A program made the position numbers and the translations under genes. The notes under the pieces were generated by a model. It did not search any database. It had not been told where the DNA came from and saw only the letters and a program-made list of their open reading frames with translations. From NCBI RefSeq assembly GCF_001005215.1, contig NZ_LBNQ01000041.1, forward strand, positions 62,001-126,000: a DNA stretch of 64,000 nucleotides, in the 5' to 3' direction. Shown in pieces: positions 49,114-57,126 of this stretch (within the stretch, counting starts at the first letter, position 1; every line of letters begins with the position of its first letter). This DNA comes from Lampropedia cohaerens (GTDB taxonomy: Bacteria; Pseudomonadota; Gammaproteobacteria; Burkholderiales; Burkholderiaceae_C).

Positions 49114-50415
49114 ATGGCATTGATTGTTCACAAGTACGGTGGCACCTCCATGGGCACCACCGAGCGCATCCGCAACGTCGCCAAGCGCGTCAAGAAATGG
49201 GTTGCCGCAGGTCATCGCGTCGTCGTCGTGCCCAGTGCCATGAGCGGCGAAACCAATCGGCTGCTGGGCCTGGCCGCGGAACTTGAGCCCAAGGAGCGCA
49301 CCAGTGCGTCGCGCCGCGAGCTCGACGCGCTGGCGGCCACCGGCGAGCAGGCATCGTCGGCGCTGCTGGCCATTGCTCTGCAGGCCGAGGGGCAGGCCGC
49401 TGTCAGCTTTACTGGCTGGCAGGTGCCGGTGCGCACCGACAGCAGTTACATGAAGGCACGCATCGAGTCCATCGATGGCGAGCGCATTCATCGGGAACTG
49501 GACGCGGGGCGGGTCGTTATCGTCACCGGCTTTCAGGGTATCGACGCGTCGGGCAACATCACCACCCTAGGGCGCGGCGGCAGCGATACATCGGCAGTGG
49601 CCATCGCTGCGGCGATCAAGGCCGACGAGTGCCTGATCTATACCGACGTTGACGGCGTCTACACCACCGACCCGCGCGTGGTGCCCAATGCCCAGCGCCT
49701 GAAGACCATCAGCTTCGAGGAAATGCTGGAGCTGGCCAGCCTTGGCTCGAAAGTGCTGCAGATCCGCTCGGTGGAATTTGCCGGCAAGTACCACGTGCCG
49801 CTGCGCGTGCTCTCGAGCTTCACCCCGTGGGACATCGATCTGGCCGAGGAGTCACGGTCGGGCACACTCATCACCTTCGAGGAAGACGAAAAAATGGAAA
49901 AAGCAGTCGTATCGGGCATCGCCTTCACCCGCGATGAGGCCAAGGTTTCCGTACTGGGTGTGCCGGACAAGCCCGGCATCGCGCACGCCATTCTCGGCGC
50001 TGTTGCCGACGCCAACATCGAAGTGGACGTCATCATCCAGAATCTCAGCAAGGACGGCAAGACCGACTTCAGCTTCACCGTCAGCCGGGGTGATTACGAG
50101 CGCACCATCAAGCTGCTCAATGAGCAGGTGCTGCCGCAACTCGGTGAGGGCACCAGCGTGGTCGGCAACACCCACATCAGTAAGGTCAGCATTGTGGGCA
50201 TCGGCATGAAAAGCCATGCAGGTGTCGCCAGCACGATGTTCCGTGCACTCAGCCAGGAGGGCATCAACATCCAGATGATCTCCACTTCGGAAATCAAGAC
50301 CTCGGTGGTGATTGACGAGAAGTACGTCGAGCTGGCCGTGCGCGCGCTGCACACAGCCTTTGGTCTGGATGGCGAGACCAGCATCGAAGTGCCCAAGCGC
50401 AACGATGAAAAGTGA
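49114..50415 (+). CDS. lysC: aspartate kinase
   Basis: 433 residues. KYGGTSMG (7-14) marks the kinase N-terminus, and TTLGRGGSDTSAVA and TDVDGVYTTDPR the catalytic part. Two ACT domains (about 265-430) bind lysine/threonine. It makes aspartyl phosphate for lysine, threonine and methionine. The ATG with GAAGCTCGAA upstream was taken. An in-frame ATG at 49894 (codon 261), just before the first ACT domain, may start a separate small subunit, as in Bacillus and Corynebacterium. Confidence 0.96.
   Translation: MALIVHKYGGTSMGTTERIRNVAKRVKKWVAAGHRVVVVPSAMSGETNRLLGLAAELEPKERTSASRRELDALAATGEQASSALLAIALQAEGQAAVSFTGWQVPVRTDSSYMKARIESIDGERIHRELDAGRVVIVTGFQGIDASGNITTLGRGGSDTSAVAIAAAIKADECLIYTDVDGVYTTDPRVVPNAQRLKTISFEEMLELASLGSKVLQIRSVEFAGKYHVPLRVLSSFTPWDIDLAEESRSGTLITFEEDEKMEKAVVSGIAFTRDEAKVSVLGVPDKPGIAHAILGAVADANIEVDVIIQNLSKDGKTDFSFTVSRGDYERTIKLLNEQVLPQLGEGTSVVGNTHISKVSIVGIGMKSHAGVASTMFRALSQEGINIQMISTSEIKTSVVIDEKYVELAVRALHTAFGLDGETSIEVPKRNDEK
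49894..50415 (+). other. candidate internally initiated aspartate kinase beta subunit
   Basis: In-frame ATG at codon 261 of lysC, preceded by GAGG about 11 nt upstream. It would give a 173-residue regulatory polypeptide beginning MEKAVVSGIAFTRDEAKVSV. That start matches, in position and wording, the beta subunits of alpha2beta2 aspartate kinases. Production of the short form is inference. Confidence 0.35.
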
Positions 50416-50475
50416 CGCATAGGCACAGATTTGTCTGAACTGTCACGAAAGTCGGGCATAATGCCGGATTCAAGC

Positions 50476-50568
50476 GGAGACGTGACCGAGAGGCCGAAGG
50501 TGCTCCCCTGCTAAGGGAGTATGCGGTGATGAGCTGCATCGAGGGTTCGAATCCCTCCGTCTCCGCCA
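50476..50568 (+). tRNA. tRNA-Ser (GCU)
   Basis: The acceptor stem GGAGACG (50476-50482) pairs with CGTCTCC (50558-50564), followed by discriminator G and encoded CCA. The anticodon stem CTCCC/GGGAG encloses the loop CTGCTAA, so the anticodon is GCT (50510-50512), reading AGC/AGU. The variable arm is long, as in class II serine tRNAs, and GGTTCGAATCC forms the T-arm. CATAAT at 50457-50462 is a plausible -10 box. It is directly downstream of lysC. Confidence 0.97.
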
Positions 50569-50580
50569 AAAGCGATCCAT

Positions 50581-50606
50581 AAAAAACCACCTGCGGGTGG
50601 TTTTTT
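50581..50606. terminator. bidirectional intrinsic terminator shared by tRNA-Ser and a helicase gene
   Basis: AAAAAACCACC, CGGGT-type loop and GGTGGTTTTTT form an inverted repeat with A- and T-tracts at each end. On the plus strand it terminates tRNA-Ser, and on the minus strand it begins immediately after the helicase stop codon (TGA, 50608-50606). It serves both convergent transcripts. Confidence 0.9.
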
Positions 50607-52651
50607 CATGTCTGCGGGGTGCTGGCCTGGGGCAGTGGGGCTGTCGCCGCGAACGCGCGGGCGATTTCCGGCGCGACGCGCTCGCAGGTCAGCAGCACGA
50701 GCGATTGCCCGGCGCGGGTCATTGCCATGTAGAGTTTGCGCGCGCGTGCTTCTATGGCGGCGCTGTGGTCCCTGGCCTGCGCATCTGCCAAGGCAGCCGC
50801 CGATACCAGCTCTTCGACACCGACCAGAAACACGACGCCCGCCTCCAGCCCGGTGGCCGTGTCGACGTTGGCCATGCGCAGGTAAGCGCGTCCGTAGCCC
50901 GCCGGAGGCTGCCTGCGTGTTTCGGACTTGTTGAACCACCACACGGTCTCGCCGCCGAAGTGCCTGCCCAGCTGCTCGTAAAGGGCGTAAGCGCTGACGC
51001 GACTGCCATAGACGACCAGCATGTCGGCCAGGCTCAGCGCGTGGTCCCGGTGGGCAGCCTGCATCTCGTTGATGAGTTTCTCGATGCAGTCCTGCACGCT
51101 GTCGCATTGCACCAGCACAGGGGGCTGGCCAGGTTCCATCCCTGTCAGGTCTGGCTGCAGGAAGTCGTCGCTGTCGCTGGTTGAGTGCTGCTGCAGGATC
51201 TGGTTGGCGGCAGTGAGGATGGCCTGCGTCGTGCGGTAGGAGCGGCGCAGTTTCTTGGTGCGGCCTGCGACTTCCAGGCCGACGCTCTTCCAGCTCAACC
51301 GGCTTTTCATGAAGCCCTGATTCGGGTCTGCACACAGGAACAGGCTGCCCTGCTGGCGCATGCCGTGGCGTACGGCCTGGAACCACGCAGGCGCAAAGAA
51401 CTGCGCTTCGTCGATCAGGACATGGTCTGCGCGCTGCATCGCCGCGTGATCCGCAGCCATGCAGATGTCGCGGGGCATGGCGCTCCAGAGCATGGCTCGC
51501 CTGGGCGGCCGCGCCAGCGTGCGCGTGACGGCTTCGTAGAGTGCCCACACGGCAGTGCGCTCTTTCTCGCGCAGCGCAAAGCCACGACCCGTGCGGCTGG
51601 CTTGCAGATACGCCGGCAGCTCGGCGATCAGGTTTTCATTGATGAAGTCCAGCTCCTCCAGCAGGATGGCGTCGGGCTGCGTCAACGCAGGCCATTGCTG
51701 GCGCAGGCGTGCGATGAGGCGCTCGGCCTCCTGCGCGCTGGCGCAATCGGGCTGGCGCTGGTAAAGCCGCGTCCATTGCTGGCGCGCCCAGGCAAAGAAT
51801 GTGGTGATCGTCACGTTGGCTGGCAGCGCCGAGCGGGTCTGCAGCAGTCTGGCCTGGACATCGGCGACGATGGGGGCGTTGTGGATGAGTACCAGCACTT
51901 GCTGATCCGGATGGAGTTCGGCCAGCAGCAGCGCCCGCGACAGTGCGATCAGCGTCTTGCCGCTGCCGGCAACGCCATTGACCAGCCGCAGTGAGAAATC
52001 CTTGCCGGCATCGGTCACGTCTTCGGGCTGCTGCAGGTCGAGCTTGGCGGCCCACTCCTGGTCATAGTCGAGAAAGTATCGGCCCAGGGAGGCGGAGTTA
52101 TCGCGGCGAAACAGTCTGTGCGTGGTGCTGGCGGGCGCGATTTCCGCCTCCGGAAAGCAGCTGCCAAGCAGCATGGCGGTTTGTCGGGTGCTGACGGGGG
52201 CAAGGATGCGCGAGATGAGTTGTGCGCCTCCCTGGTGGAACGCATCCCGTGAGATGAAGGTTACGCCGTATTTGTGTGCATAGCGGGTGCTGATGTGCTG
52301 CACCTGCTGCGTGTTGCACTTCCACATGAGGATCAGCTTCTTGAGCGGCGTCTCGCCAGGCTGGGCGGTGGCGCAGGAGAAGGCATGAAAGCGCTGTAGC
52401 AGTTCCTCGAACGGAGTCGGCTGGTCATGGCTGAACAGCTGTGCCTGGGGAATCGCCGAGAACGGCGTATCGGACACGGCAATTGCCAACCAGCCATTTT
52501 TGGCATGCTGGATGAAAAAGTCCGGCAGCCACTGCTGGCGCGCAAACGGCGTGCGCACGACGTGTGCATCGTCGAGCGCGCTCAGCGTGCGTTTGATATG
52601 GATGGCTTTGGCGCCCTTGGCACCGATTTTCTCGGGAATGAATATGGCCAT
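50606..52651 (-). CDS. superfamily 1 DNA/RNA helicase, UvrD-like, with unknown N-terminal domain
   Basis: 681 residues. Residues 1-220 match no family I recognise; they contain PDFFIQHAKNGWLAIAVSD and a later LILMWKC. The helicase part shows Walker A GVAGSGKT (226-233), DEAQFFAP motif II, LCADPNQGF, LRRSYRTTQ and the closing KLYMAMTRAGQSLVLL motif VI. It is related to COG0210/DUF2075 helicases. A GTG start 30 bp upstream is also in frame. It follows a second helicase gene by 66 bp on the same strand. Function unknown: repair, RNA processing or anti-phage roles are all possible. Confidence 0.78.
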   Translation of the reverse strand: MAIFIPEKIGAKGAKAIHIKRTLSALDDAHVVRTPFARQQWLPDFFIQHAKNGWLAIAVSDTPFSAIPQAQLFSHDQPTPFEELLQRFHAFSCATAQPGETPLKKLILMWKCNTQQVQHISTRYAHKYGVTFISRDAFHQGGAQLISRILAPVSTRQTAMLLGSCFPEAEIAPASTTHRLFRRDNSASLGRYFLDYDQEWAAKLDLQQPEDVTDAGKDFSLRLVNGVAGSGKTLIALSRALLLAELHPDQQVLVLIHNAPIVADVQARLLQTRSALPANVTITTFFAWARQQWTRLYQRQPDCASAQEAERLIARLRQQWPALTQPDAILLEELDFINENLIAELPAYLQASRTGRGFALREKERTAVWALYEAVTRTLARPPRRAMLWSAMPRDICMAADHAAMQRADHVLIDEAQFFAPAWFQAVRHGMRQQGSLFLCADPNQGFMKSRLSWKSVGLEVAGRTKKLRRSYRTTQAILTAANQILQQHSTSDSDDFLQPDLTGMEPGQPPVLVQCDSVQDCIEKLINEMQAAHRDHALSLADMLVVYGSRVSAYALYEQLGRHFGGETVWWFNKSETRRQPPAGYGRAYLRMANVDTATGLEAGVVFLVGVEELVSAAALADAQARDHSAAIEARARKLYMAMTRAGQSLVLLTCERVAPEIARAFAATAPLPQASTPQT

Positions 52652-52717
52652 GCCGGATGCTCGTTCATGATGGTCCTGCACGCGCAGTGGCGCCAGGCGA
52701 TCATAAACAGGAAAGTG

Positions 52718-54463
52718 TCACGGCAGCGGCGCGCGCCGGCAATACGTAATCAAATCGCGGTACTGCGCAAGCCACTGCTGCACCGCAGGATCTGACCCGG
52801 CAGGTGCCGTCACAGGTTCCGGTCCGATGACGATGAGCTTGGTCTTGGCGCGGGTAATGGAGACGTTGAGCCGCTCGGGCTGGAACAGGAATGGCGCCAC
52901 CATGGCGATGAATGCGGGATCCGTGCTGGTCAATGACAGGATGACAACTTCACGTTCCTGCCCTTGCATGCGTTCGACGGTGTCGGCGACGATACCGTGC
53001 GCCACGGTCGAACCAAGCTGCGCGCGCAGGCCGCGGCGGATGCACCGGCCTTGCGCGCGGTAGGGGCTGACGATGCCGATCTCTGAAGCGGGCAGGCCTG
53101 CGCCGATCAGGGCCTTGCAAAGTTCGACCACCAGATCCGCATCCTGCGCATTGACGGTGCGGCAGTGCGTGCCAAGGCTGGGAACGAAGATGGCGCAGTC
53201 TTCCCCGCACAGCGCGGGGTGCAGATGGCGTGGTATGGCGCGGGCCGACGCCAGGGCAAGCCTGCGCCGCGCATTCGGGCCAGCGGCGCGCAGCTGCCCG
53301 TCATAGTATGTCTGGCTGGGCCACTGCGTCAGCCATTGGTTCATGCGGTAGGTCTCGTCGAGCATGACCAGATGGTCGGCGTCCGGCGCTGTCAGGCGTG
53401 AAAAGATGGCATGCGCTTGTTTGTCCAGCACCGAGCGCGACAGCAATACGGGCGGCAGTTGCTTCTGGTCGCCGATGAAAATGTAGCGCCTGGCCTTGCG
53501 CATGGCCATCAACGCCAGCGGAATGGTGATCTGGCTGGCCTCGTCAAAGAGTACGGTGTCGAACGTGTAGTGGCCAAGGCGTCGGAGTGAACAGGTCGCA
53601 AACGGTGTGGCGCCAACCACATAGCCGGCGCCGCTCGGGCGCTCCTCCCACGCATCCAGGCCTTCCACACAGGGAATTTGCCTGTCCAGCTCCTTGCATT
53701 GTGTGGTGCGGCCTACCTTGACGACCGGGACACCCTGGGCGTGAATCTTGTTGAGTGCGTTGTTGATGGCCATGTGCGTATGCGAGGTCACCAGCACGCG
53801 CTCGCCGCGCGCGACGGCCAGACGGGCGATCAAGCCGAGCACCCGGGTCTTGCCCGTGCCGGGTGGCCCCTGGATGCAGGCCACATGGTGCGCACCATGC
53901 GCCCAGCTGACAGCGTCAGCCTGCCTGGCGTTGTAGTCCTCGCTGCGTGCCACGCACATCGCCTCGTCCATGTCGTCATCGTCAAAGGTGATGTCCAGCG
54001 TGCCGTCCAGCAGGGGCAATATGACCTCCTGGCCGATGGCCGTGGTGGCGATGTCCTGCAGGGCTTGTTCGTAATAGTCCGTCAGATCCATGACGTCTGG
54101 GTCGGCGTAGCAGGCGCTGCCTGCATAGTCGGCCCAGGCAGTCGCCGCCTGTCTGCTGCGCAGCAGCCAGCGGTCGTCCTCCTCGCTTTCGAAGAATGCC
54201 TGGCGGCACAGCGGCTCCAGCGCATTGCCCTCGTGCAGGCACAGCAGATCGCCTTCGCGAAAGCGCGATTCCGACTCGTCAGGATAGGCCCACAGGGTGC
54301 CTGGTTCCGGGCCTTGCTCCAGCTTACTGAAGCCCTGCGTCAGCCCCTTGCGCAGCTTCTCCTGCAGCGGCTGCTCCCATGTGTGAAACAGCTCGGCAAA
54401 GGCGGTGTCGCGCTCGTCGTGCACGAGCTGGCGCAGACTGGTCAACAGCGAGAGGCTACGCAT
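52718..54463 (-). CDS. superfamily 1B helicase, UPF1/DNA2-like
   Basis: 581 residues. After about 170 residues without a recognised domain come Walker A GPPGTGKT (199-206), THMAINNALNKI, DEAS (307-310), GDQKQLPP (331-338), SPYRAQ and the closing ERMQGQEREVVILSL and LNVSITRAKTKLIVIG. This is the UPF1/SMUBP2/DNA2 pattern. It follows benE at 23 bp and precedes the other helicase gene at 66 bp, so all three may be one transcript. Partners and substrate are unknown. Confidence 0.8.
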   Translation of the reverse strand: MRSLSLLTSLRQLVHDERDTAFAELFHTWEQPLQEKLRKGLTQGFSKLEQGPEPGTLWAYPDESESRFREGDLLCLHEGNALEPLCRQAFFESEEDDRWLLRSRQAATAWADYAGSACYADPDVMDLTDYYEQALQDIATTAIGQEVILPLLDGTLDITFDDDDMDEAMCVARSEDYNARQADAVSWAHGAHHVACIQGPPGTGKTRVLGLIARLAVARGERVLVTSHTHMAINNALNKIHAQGVPVVKVGRTTQCKELDRQIPCVEGLDAWEERPSGAGYVVGATPFATCSLRRLGHYTFDTVLFDEASQITIPLALMAMRKARRYIFIGDQKQLPPVLLSRSVLDKQAHAIFSRLTAPDADHLVMLDETYRMNQWLTQWPSQTYYDGQLRAAGPNARRRLALASARAIPRHLHPALCGEDCAIFVPSLGTHCRTVNAQDADLVVELCKALIGAGLPASEIGIVSPYRAQGRCIRRGLRAQLGSTVAHGIVADTVERMQGQEREVVILSLTSTDPAFIAMVAPFLFQPERLNVSITRAKTKLIVIGPEPVTAPAGSDPAVQQWLAQYRDLITYCRRAPLP

Positions 54464-54486
54464 ACGAAGGTGTGCAGGAACGCTGC

Positions 54487-55653
54487 TCAGTCACGCTGGC
54501 GCAGTACCACCAGCGCGATGCAGCCGGCCACCAGCCCCCAGAATGCGGCGCCGATGCCGCCCAGTGTCAGGCCGGAAGCGGTGACGAGAAAGGCGATCAA
54601 CGCCGACTCGCGGCTGGACGTGTCACGCAGCGCGGTGTGCAGGCTGCTGGCAATCGTGCCCAACAGGGCGATGCCGGCAATGGCCATGATGAGCTCGCGC
54701 GGAAAGGCGGCAAACAGTGCCACCACCATGCCGCCAGCCAGCCCCGCCAGCAGGTAGAACGCGCCGGCGGCCACTGCGGCAACGTAGCGCCGCTGCGGAT
54801 CTTCATGCGCCTCGCGCCCCATGCTGATGGCCGCCGTGATGGCCGCCAGATTGATCGCATAGGCGCCAAACGGTGCCAGCAGCAAGTTGACCACGCCGGT
54901 AAAGCCGATCACGGGCGAGACCGGCAGTGCATAGCCCGATGCGCGCGCAACCGCCACGCCGGGAATGTTCTGCGAAGTCATTGTCACGATGAACAAAGGC
55001 AGCGCCACGCTCAGCAGCGCAGGCAGCGACAGCTGCGGCCAGGTCAAGACCGGCTGTGGCCATTGCCAGCCGATCTGCTCGAAGTGCAGTTGGCCGCCGG
55101 TGGCGGCAATCGCCACGCCAACGGCCAGCGTGGCAATGACGGCATAGCGGGCAAACCAGACTCGCCCGGCCAGGTAGACGGCCAGCATGGCCAGCACCAG
55201 CAATGGCTGCGTTTGTACCGCGGCGAAGGCGTCGATGCCAAAGCGCAGCAGCACGCCAGCGAGCATGCCGGCTGCCAGCGCCATCGGAAGGCGGTTCATG
55301 GCCTTTTCGAACCAGCCGGTAAAGCCGCTGATCACGATCAGCACGGCACAGACCATGAACGCACCGATCAGTTCGGCCATCGGCAATCCCAGTGTCGTGC
55401 CCATCAGCATCGCCGCACCGGGGGTGGACCAGGCTGTGACAACCGGCATGCGCAGCCACAGCGACGGCAGTATGCAGGTCACGCCCATGGCCATGCCCAG
55501 TGCCCACATCCATGAGGCAATCTCGGCCTGGCTGGCCCCCAGCGCCTGCGCCGCCTGAAAGACGATGGCCGCAGAGCTGGTATAGCCCACCAGCACGGTG
55601 ATGAAGCCTGCGGCGATGGCCGAGGCAGACATGTCCTTCAGGAATCTGGTCAT
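54487..55653 (-). CDS. benE: BenE-type benzoate/H+ symporter family protein
   Basis: 388 residues, about eleven to twelve membrane spans. It opens LKDMSASAIAAGFITVLVGYTSS, and family signatures WSTPGAAMLMGTT and LNRLPMALAAGMLAGVLLRFG-like are present. The QNIPG motif seen in BenE proteins lies near 228 (TSQNIPGVAVARA). It imports benzoate with protons in characterised members. No benzoate dioxygenase genes are near, so the substrate may differ. The gene lies 240 bp downstream of a binding-protein gene. Confidence 0.9.
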   Translation of the reverse strand: MTRFLKDMSASAIAAGFITVLVGYTSSAAIVFQAAQALGASQAEIASWMWALGMAMGVTCILPSLWLRMPVVTAWSTPGAAMLMGTTLGLPMAELIGAFMVCAVLIVISGFTGWFEKAMNRLPMALAAGMLAGVLLRFGIDAFAAVQTQPLLVLAMLAVYLAGRVWFARYAVIATLAVGVAIAATGGQLHFEQIGWQWPQPVLTWPQLSLPALLSVALPLFIVTMTSQNIPGVAVARASGYALPVSPVIGFTGVVNLLLAPFGAYAINLAAITAAISMGREAHEDPQRRYVAAVAAGAFYLLAGLAGGMVVALFAAFPRELIMAIAGIALLGTIASSLHTALRDTSSRESALIAFLVTASGLTLGGIGAAFWGLVAGCIALVVLRQRD

Positions 55654-55893
55654 GATGCAAGGGGTGATGCCCGGGCTGGCCCGGTGAACGATGCCGCGCG
55701 TGCAGCATCCTCATCCACATTGCATGCGCGGCGCTGCATTCCGCATGGGGGCAGTCGTGTCAGCGAAGCGGTAATTATCGGCCGCATTCGCTCCCGGCAT
55801 AGCGAACTGATCCTGGCGTTCGCAAACTTGCGCCGCGCACGCAGCCCAGCTTGCTGTGCGCCAGTTTCACGCGACGTGGGCGGGATACTGGCC

Positions 55894-57126
55894 TTACCGC
55901 TGTGTCAGCAGCGGGCACCGCGACTGCTCCAGCGGCTGGAACGCTTTCTCGGCGGGGATGGTGTCGATCAGCTTGTAATAGTCCCAGGGCCCGTTGGATT
56001 CGGCTGGTGTTTTTACCTCGAAGACATACATGTCGTGGATGACGCGTCCATCGTCGCGGATGGAAGCGTTGCGCATGACGGCATCCTCGATGGGCAGTGC
56101 GCGCATGGTCTCGGCCACTGCCCGCCAGTCGTCCGTGCCGGCTGCCGCCACGGACTTGAGGTAGTGCAGCGTGCTGGAGTACACCCCGGCCTGCACCATT
56201 GTGGGCATGTTGCCCTGGTGGCGCTCTGCGAAACGGGTGGCGAATGCACGCGTGCGCGCATCCAGATCCCAGTAGAAGCCTTCGGAAAACTTCAGGCCCT
56301 GTGCAGTTTCCAGGCCCATGGCATGGACATCGGTGAGAAACACCAGCAGCGCAGCGATCTGCTGACCGCCATGGGCAATGCCAAACTCGTGGACACCCTT
56401 CATGGCATTGACGGTGTCCTGTGCGCCATTGGCCAGCGCAATGGCGTCTGCGCCGGAGGACTGTGCCTGCAGCAGGAACGACGAAAAGTCGCTGGCGTTG
56501 AGCGGGTGGCGTACCGCACCGACGACCTGCCCGCCGTTGGCGGCGATGATGGCGCTGGCGTCCTTTTCGAGCGAATGGCCGAAGGCATAGTCCACCGTGA
56601 TGAAGAACCATTTCCTGGCGCCAGCCTGCGTCATGGCCGCCACCGGCGCCGCTGATAGGGAGTAGGTGTCGAACATCCAGTGAAAGCCGTTGCGCGCGCA
56701 GTCCTCGTTGGTCAGGCGGGTGGTGGCCGGGCCGGAATACATCGCGATGCCGCCGCGCTCGCGGATGATCTGCTGAATGGCCAGCGCGCCGGCGGAATTG
56801 GTCAGATCCACCAGGGCATCGACCTGCTGCACATCCAGCCACTCTCGCGCCCGGGAGGCGGCAATATCCGCCTTGTTTTGGTTGTCGGCACTGATCAGCT
56901 CGATCGGCATGCCCTTGCACTCGGCCATGAGACAGTCCTCGATAGCCATGCGCGCGGCCACCACCGAGCCGGGACCCCCCATGCCGGAGTAGGGGCCGGA
57001 CATGTCGGTCAGCACGCCGATCTTGACCAGTCCGTCGGAGAGATCCGGTGTCTGCGCGAGAGTGCCCTGCAGCGCCAGCGTGCAGGCGGCCGCCAATGCG
57101 CACCGGCGAATAAAGGTGTATGCCAT
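55894..57126 (-). CDS. ABC transporter substrate-binding protein, type 1 periplasmic fold
   Basis: 410 residues. The signal peptide MAYTFIRRCALAAACTLALQ ends near GTLAQT. The mature protein begins VKIGVLTDMSGPYSGMGGPG, typical of branched-chain amino-acid and aromatic-acid binding proteins (Peripla_BP_6). No permease or ATPase genes are adjacent. AGGAG lies about 10 nt before the ATG. It is divergent from prfC and co-oriented with benE, which suggests an aromatic ligand, but that is inference. Confidence 0.88.
   Translation of the reverse strand: MAYTFIRRCALAAACTLALQGTLAQTPDLSDGLVKIGVLTDMSGPYSGMGGPGSVVAARMAIEDCLMAECKGMPIELISADNQNKADIAASRAREWLDVQQVDALVDLTNSAGALAIQQIIRERGGIAMYSGPATTRLTNEDCARNGFHWMFDTYSLSAAPVAAMTQAGARKWFFITVDYAFGHSLEKDASAIIAANGGQVVGAVRHPLNASDFSSFLLQAQSSGADAIALANGAQDTVNAMKGVHEFGIAHGGQQIAALLVFLTDVHAMGLETAQGLKFSEGFYWDLDARTRAFATRFAERHQGNMPTMVQAGVYSSTLHYLKSVAAAGTDDWRAVAETMRALPIEDAVMRNASIRDDGRVIHDMYVFEVKTPAESNGPWDYYKLIDTIPAEKAFQPLEQSRCPLLTQR

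Follow-up and report, generated by a model that had tools for sequence, protein, structure and literature searches.

The window analysed here, a stretch of 64,000 nucleotides from the 3.16 Mb genome of Lampropedia cohaerens (Comamonadaceae; G000 in our collection), contains two helicase genes of superfamily 1 (SF1) in tandem beside a tRNA-Ser gene. The initial annotation had described the two genes as intact, and both open reading frames (ORFs) are indeed open from end to end. They are transcribed in the following order:

52718..54463, minus strand: SF1B helicase gene (UPF1/IGHMBP2/DNA2-like), first of the pair, an intact ORF of 581 aa with an ATG start
50606..52651, minus strand: SF1A helicase gene (UvrD-like), second of the pair, 681 aa from a conserved ATG at 52651

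The SF1A ORF can also be read in a longer version (50606-52681, minus strand, 691 aa), which is likewise intact and starts with GTG. Because the relatives of the protein share a start of the form MAxFIPE, the ATG at 52651 is the more likely start. Pfam finds AAA_11 and AAA_12 in the SF1B protein and, in the SF1A protein, UvrD_C above the cut-off (1.8e-7) and UvrD-helicase just under it.

Scanning a collection of species genomes with an SF1A alignment yielded 25 loci. In 23 of them, in hosts ranging from Betaproteobacteria to Chloroflexota, the SF1A gene is preceded on its own strand by an SF1B gene. In the 27 cases in which we determined the spacing (the window, 23 loci and three plasmids), it is 16 nt or less in 24, with a median of 2 nt and two overlaps; at locus L083, a PD40 gene of 443 codons stands between the two helicase genes. 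The two genes are neighbours far more often than chance would allow. They are also rare, and rare in the same places, as judged by genome scans that scored only the candidates from a loose first pass. The pair was found in 4 of the 10 Lampropedia genomes (the same four for both genes, one of them with an assembly gap in SF1B). At the family level, SF1A occurs in 4 of 399 genomes and SF1B in the same 4, and at the class level both genes are confined to 1 of 369 genomes, the window's own. This patchiness bears out the suggestion that the pair is accessory. In the genus of locus L070, named Massilia, SF1A is present in 7 of 62 genomes and split in one of the seven. Taken together, the data show a two-gene unit that is rare and, across distantly related bacteria, almost always complete. 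The split Massilia gene (G824, contig C1, 1066648-1068584) is interrupted at about residue 222, with its parts in different frames, which means that the copy is broken or that the sequence contains an error.

The AlphaFold2 model of the SF1B protein (pLDDT 88.8) gives its best Z-scores with IGHMBP2 (30.1), UPF1 (29.3) and DNA2 (27.6), in alignments that start at residue 1; against IGHMBP2 (4b3g), residues 1-581 of the model align over 525 residues with an rmsd of 4.7. In the model, the amino terminus consists of a helix (2-30) followed by strands (43-50, 56-61, 73-77, 86-94 and 99-102), parts for which we assume that the names stalk and 1B apply:

53984..54463, minus strand: predicted stalk helices and 1B barrel of the SF1B protein, approximately residues 1-160 (predicted model and structure alignments)

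The initial annotation had considered this region unassigned. Since UPF1-like structures cover it from the first residue, it is better described, on the model, as an ordinary stalk and barrel. With its AAA_11/AAA_12 core and these N-terminal parts, the modelled protein qualifies as a UPF1/IGHMBP2/DNA2-type helicase; the NCBIfam models for the IGHMBP2 family and for PLuB also match it, under their cut-offs.

The SF1A protein (predicted model with pLDDT 83.9) combines two regions of different character:

50642..52006, minus strand: UvrD-like helicase core, approximately residues 216-670 (structure match to UvrD 2is4)
52157..52651, minus strand: degenerate NERD-like domain, residues 1-165 (hhalign; the E-x-K positions are A58 and S60)

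Residues 163-672 of the model align with UvrD (2is4) over 439 residues (Z 26.9, rmsd 3.9), which, together with the UvrD_C match, identifies the predicted protein as a UvrD-type SF1A helicase. Its DEAQ motif is invariant, as are the Walker A lysine and the arginines of motifs IV and VI. The helicase residues that we checked are identical in all rows that have them, except for a T/S exchange in the SF1A Walker A motif. Judged by sequence, the ATPase motifs are intact in both motors.

The amino terminus of the SF1A protein appears to be NERD-like by sequence relationship. In hhalign it matches the N-termini of six NERD-UvrD helicases over residues 1-68 (probability 96.3, E 1.6e-9) and, more weakly, a mixed set of 15 NERD domains (63.8%, E 6.7e-5). 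The six NERD-UvrD helicases, which come from relatives, have a PDF...G.L motif in common with it. The Pfam matches of the SF1A protein taken singly did not include NERD, and the rows of our fold comparison barely cover this part. In the model, residues 14-109 follow the order helix-strand-strand-strand-helix-strand, which we take to be the order expected of PD-(D/E)XK folds. The D, E and K of the active site are invariant in 15 of 15 NERD rows, a set (16 matches, with the short L111 dropped) found by a Pfam model that favours domains keeping the motif. In the SF1A alignment A3, whose 25 rows are the window and 24 loci (without the partial L085), no row has E at position 58 and none has K at position 60. 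The D position holds D in 18 rows, E in 5, N in 1 and Q in 1. Three Vibrio SF1A rows likewise lack E-x-K, by eye. The aligned sequences thus show that the catalytic E-x-K of the PD-(D/E)XK site has been lost from the NERD-like domain. No SF1B gene of the family was found upstream of any of the six NERD-UvrD relatives in the stretches examined. In this small sample, chosen by the Pfam NERD model for intact domains, motif loss goes with possession of an SF1B partner. The initial annotation had treated both N-termini as unassigned and had named nuclease, NERD or DNA-binding folds as candidates for them. Both can be assigned, and only the SF1A end is unusual, a degenerate nuclease-like domain. One NERD-UvrD helicase, at locus L140 (7071-13421), converges on a gene for a UPF1-like protein of 1,493 aa with AAA_11/AAA_12 and an MTES_1575 restriction domain.

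In a joint tree of 23 rows, Lampropedia falls into a supported set of seven with Zoogloeaceae, Azonexus, Pseudoduganella and an unclassified betaproteobacterium, apart from Variovorax. Forcing the Comamonadaceae to be monophyletic is rejected (p-AU 1.0e-9), as is the same constraint on the Oxalobacteraceae (p-AU 2.7e-4); the constrained groups are taxonomic families, and both tests were picked after inspection of the tree. The sequences strongly indicate horizontal transfer of the pair, which would be the simplest cause of the conflict between tree and taxonomy, and old duplication followed by loss could also account for it. Matches to both genes occur in four Vibrio plasmid records, two of which resemble each other in length and in position. 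Plasmid pJS1-2 of Geobacillus has an SF1A match (28% over 46%), is absent from the SF1B matches and was not counted as carrying the pair. The DNA of the pair on pVPTW011 had no match in E. coli genomes. A viral origin of the pair was considered and rejected, as SF1A found no match among 50,697 phage records and none in an IMG/VR scan. SF1B matches 33 loci in IMG/VR, at 22-49% identity, the best of them over the helicase core only.

The immediate surroundings of the pair in the window hold three further features:

54487..55653, minus strand: BenE benzoate transporter gene (Pfam BenE 1.1e-136), directly upstream of the SF1B gene, listed for context
50581..50606, no strand assigned: two-way terminator-like hairpin (AAAAAACCACC-TGCG-GGTGGTTTTTT) between the tRNA-Ser gene and the pair, read directly in the sequence
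50476-50568, plus strand: tRNA-Ser(GCT) gene, convergent neighbour (Rfam 50476-50565), judged incidental

Since the SF1B gene comes after benE on the same strand with a gap of just 23 nt (54463-54487), the pair is possibly read from the benE promoter and co-transcribed with benE; an automated scan of 50400-55900 found no sigma-70-like site. At its other end, the SF1A gene runs into the hairpin, which it shares with the convergent tRNA-Ser(GCT) gene and which was not among the results of that scan.

Insertion of the pair at the tRNA-Ser gene, as proposed in the initial annotation, did not hold up when the lysC-tRNA-Ser neighbourhood was compared across the genus. The gene lysC is present in 10 of 10 Lampropedia genomes, and tRNA-Ser adjoins it in 8 of the 9 others. 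Six of these nine (G002, G003, G004, G005, G007 and G009) have no full-length SF1A or SF1B member, and in L. puyangensis and L. aestuarii the pair sits elsewhere, beside an aminotransferase gene. In G008 it lies on a contig of 4.2 kb, and the contig with the tRNA stops 20 nt beyond the tRNA, leaving the site of the pair unplaced. Because the pair is missing from six of the nine genomes and located elsewhere in two, the tRNA-Ser beside it looks incidental; their adjacency is not conserved where comparison was possible. What the comparison did uphold is that the pair is patchy and accessory. G003, G005 and G007 lack it altogether, their aminotransferase genes have different neighbours, and comparing these regions gave no base-exact empty site. 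As the initial annotation had noted, the locus shows no integrase gene (in the ORF list of the window, by eye) and no attachment repeat. We also rejected the tRNA-Ser gene as an attachment site, given that its 26-base 3' end has no second copy in the window and that the pair is flanked by short and imperfect direct repeats only. In L. puyangensis, genes for a YqaJ recombinase and a DUF932 protein adjoin tRNA-Ser (L051, 3-2135), for which reason the tRNA gene may be a hot spot in other genomes. Apparent broken relatives were seen by eye in L. aestuarii.

On pOCN014 of V. coralliilyticus (L096, 429-16243), Gabija, the helicase pair and Septu lie within 16 kb, with the pair between GajAB (E 4.3e-217 and 1.5e-266) and PtuAB (E 1.5e-148 and 1.1e-93) and separated from them by two hypothetical genes on either side. 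On pVPTW011 of V. parahaemolyticus, integrase, VapE and HNH genes precede the pair, the integrase gene by about 4 kb. The gene next upstream encodes the HNH protein, which matches a type IV restriction model in its HNH part (2e-22), and a weak match to AbiP (5.6e-8) lies about 5 kb downstream.

The pair was compared with described systems. In PADLOC, the SF1A protein matches C3a187 best, a solitary helicase that likewise joins a NERD N-terminus to a UvrD-like core (9e-35 in two stretches, the better one at residues 418-669, in the helicase). However, two solitary relatives match this model nearly end to end (2.6e-169 and 4.1e-136) and keep LEVK, whereas the SF1A protein of the pair has lost E-x-K and has an SF1B gene as partner. 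Gabija, which consists of the nuclease GajA and the UvrD-like helicase GajB, is also a two-gene unit with a UvrD-like gene, and one near the pair on one plasmid. The pair has no GajA-type OLD ATPase-nuclease, its partner being an SF1B helicase in 23 of 25 loci, and the best GajB match of SF1A is 4.7e-12. For the SF1B protein, the best PADLOC match is MkoA of Mokosh (MkoA/MkoC; 1e-48, best stretch in the helicase), but its 581 aa compare with model lengths of 1112-1607. Mokosh also includes a kinase or PLD domain in its layout, and neither was found in a Pfam scan of the pair's proteins. For CoCoNuT systems, which are predicted to be defence operons, PMC11090510 describes a UPF1-like helicase, CnuH. 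The SF1B protein of the pair is likewise UPF1-like, a core with stalk and barrel, but has a UvrD-like helicase as its partner. No McrBC-type or HEPN gene and no nuclease effector was recognised beside the pair in the ORF list of the window, inspected by eye only.

These findings suggest a model for what the pair may do. An SF1B motor of the UPF1/IGHMBP2/DNA2 type is encoded first, followed by a UvrD-type SF1A motor with a decayed NERD-like domain. Helicases of the first kind are expected to move 5'-3' and those of the second kind 3'-5'. We infer that the two proteins could act together, in a complex, as a two-polarity motor that would formally resemble RecB plus RecD minus the nuclease. RecBCD serves as an analogy only for how such a machine might work, with an SF1A motor (RecB) and an SF1B motor (RecD) of opposite expected polarity; the SF1B protein of the pair belongs to another clade, and RecC and an active nuclease motif are missing. 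The dead NERD domain would provide a platform for binding DNA or a partner, and the complex might load on invading or stalled DNA, at ends, forks or RNA:DNA hybrids. Once loaded, it would unwind or strip the nucleic acid and so keep foreign DNA from replicating or pass it to host nucleases. The broader reading, that the pair is a mobile two-motor unit without active nuclease whose likeliest use is defence against phages or plasmids, has in our estimate slightly less than an even chance. We are more doubtful of its specific form, an immune system in which a dead NERD domain guides UPF1-like and UvrD-like motors of opposite polarity, which block foreign DNA by unwinding or stripping and not by cutting; this is a tentative proposal and rather unlikely to be right as it stands. 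The anti-phage or repair module envisaged in the initial annotation survives to the extent that either role is reasonable for an accessory pair, and without the tRNA insertion attached to it.

Several observations weigh against the defence reading or against the unity of the pair on which it builds. With 66 nt, the window itself accounts for one of the three wide spacings. At two loci the SF1A-type match has no SF1B counterpart: L084, where SF1A lies in an ORF of 1,399 codons, and L085, which is matched in part, at the end of a contig. The parallel protein distances of SF1A and SF1B (r = 0.974 over 22 rows; L061 and L067, with incomplete SF1B, were excluded, L061 also from the tree), which count in favour of a unit, are expected for any two co-inherited genes. 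The evidence for a defence neighbourhood comes from two plasmids, clear in one and weaker in the other, and most chromosomal copies lie, by eye, amid housekeeping genes. When 15 plasmid neighbours, picked by annotation, were tested against PADLOC, 6 matched and 9 did not, and all four neighbours tested on the V. nigripulchritudo plasmid were without match. Finally, 106 flanking ORFs from 20 genome loci matched 53 PADLOC families, none of them by more than one ORF, in a count made without a comparison to random flanks. The scan left aside L061, L065, L079, L084 and L085 as well as ORFs below 130 or above 1400 aa, and took up to three ORFs per side from simple ORF calling; the 25 families shown include AbiEi, UvrD-like GajB models, a DRT helicase model and PDC-M42C. 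As a separate matter, the helicase of L084 (1003-5202) follows a region of about 690 residues that looks, by eye, like a methyltransferase, Pfam having matched the UvrD part only.

The housekeeping surroundings and the few PADLOC matches speak for a role in the host chromosome, in which UvrD-like and UPF1/Sen1-like motors would clear stalled forks, R-loops and nucleoprotein blocks as an accessory module for DNA repair or transcription-replication conflicts, spread as a fitness gene and not as immunity. One Chloroflexota copy (L080, 1378-3256) has an RNase H gene directly upstream, itself preceded by a P22_AR_N antirepressor-type gene, and this RNase H suits a role at RNA:DNA hybrids. A gene for an impB/mucB-type polymerase lies about 2.8 kb downstream of the L. 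aestuarii pair, and the six Massilia loci form one clade, several of them with neighbours in common (by eye). Such a role sits less well with the rarity and patchiness of the pair even within the class and within Massilia, with the plasmid copy between Gabija and Septu, and with a tree at odds with taxonomy. We regard it as a serious possibility, if one that is probably not correct. It is quite improbable that the motors serve the mobile elements themselves, by aiding the replication of plasmids or integrated elements or by displacing host proteins on entry. The plasmid copies speak for such a function, as does an integrase gene lying about 4 kb away at L083 and L094, but SF1A has no match in the phage collection or the IMG/VR scan, and most of the genome loci inspected by eye have no recognised mobile-element gene close by. 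That two ordinary solitary helicases are neighbours by accident next to a tRNA gene is scarcely credible, since, even if both proteins come from large and common helicase classes, the conserved order and the identical presence across 399 genomes already contradict it.

The pair may be an undescribed device for defence or DNA rescue; a literature search covering titles and the openings of abstracts, with subscription papers mostly outside its coverage, returned no description of it. In most defence systems that include a helicase, to our knowledge, a nuclease or some other effector is coupled to the motor. If the defence reading is correct, a spreading SF1A-SF1B pair with a dead nuclease-like domain would mean that unwinding alone can be a weapon. 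Alternatively, the pair would bring to light a machine for rescuing stalled replication that can be transferred.

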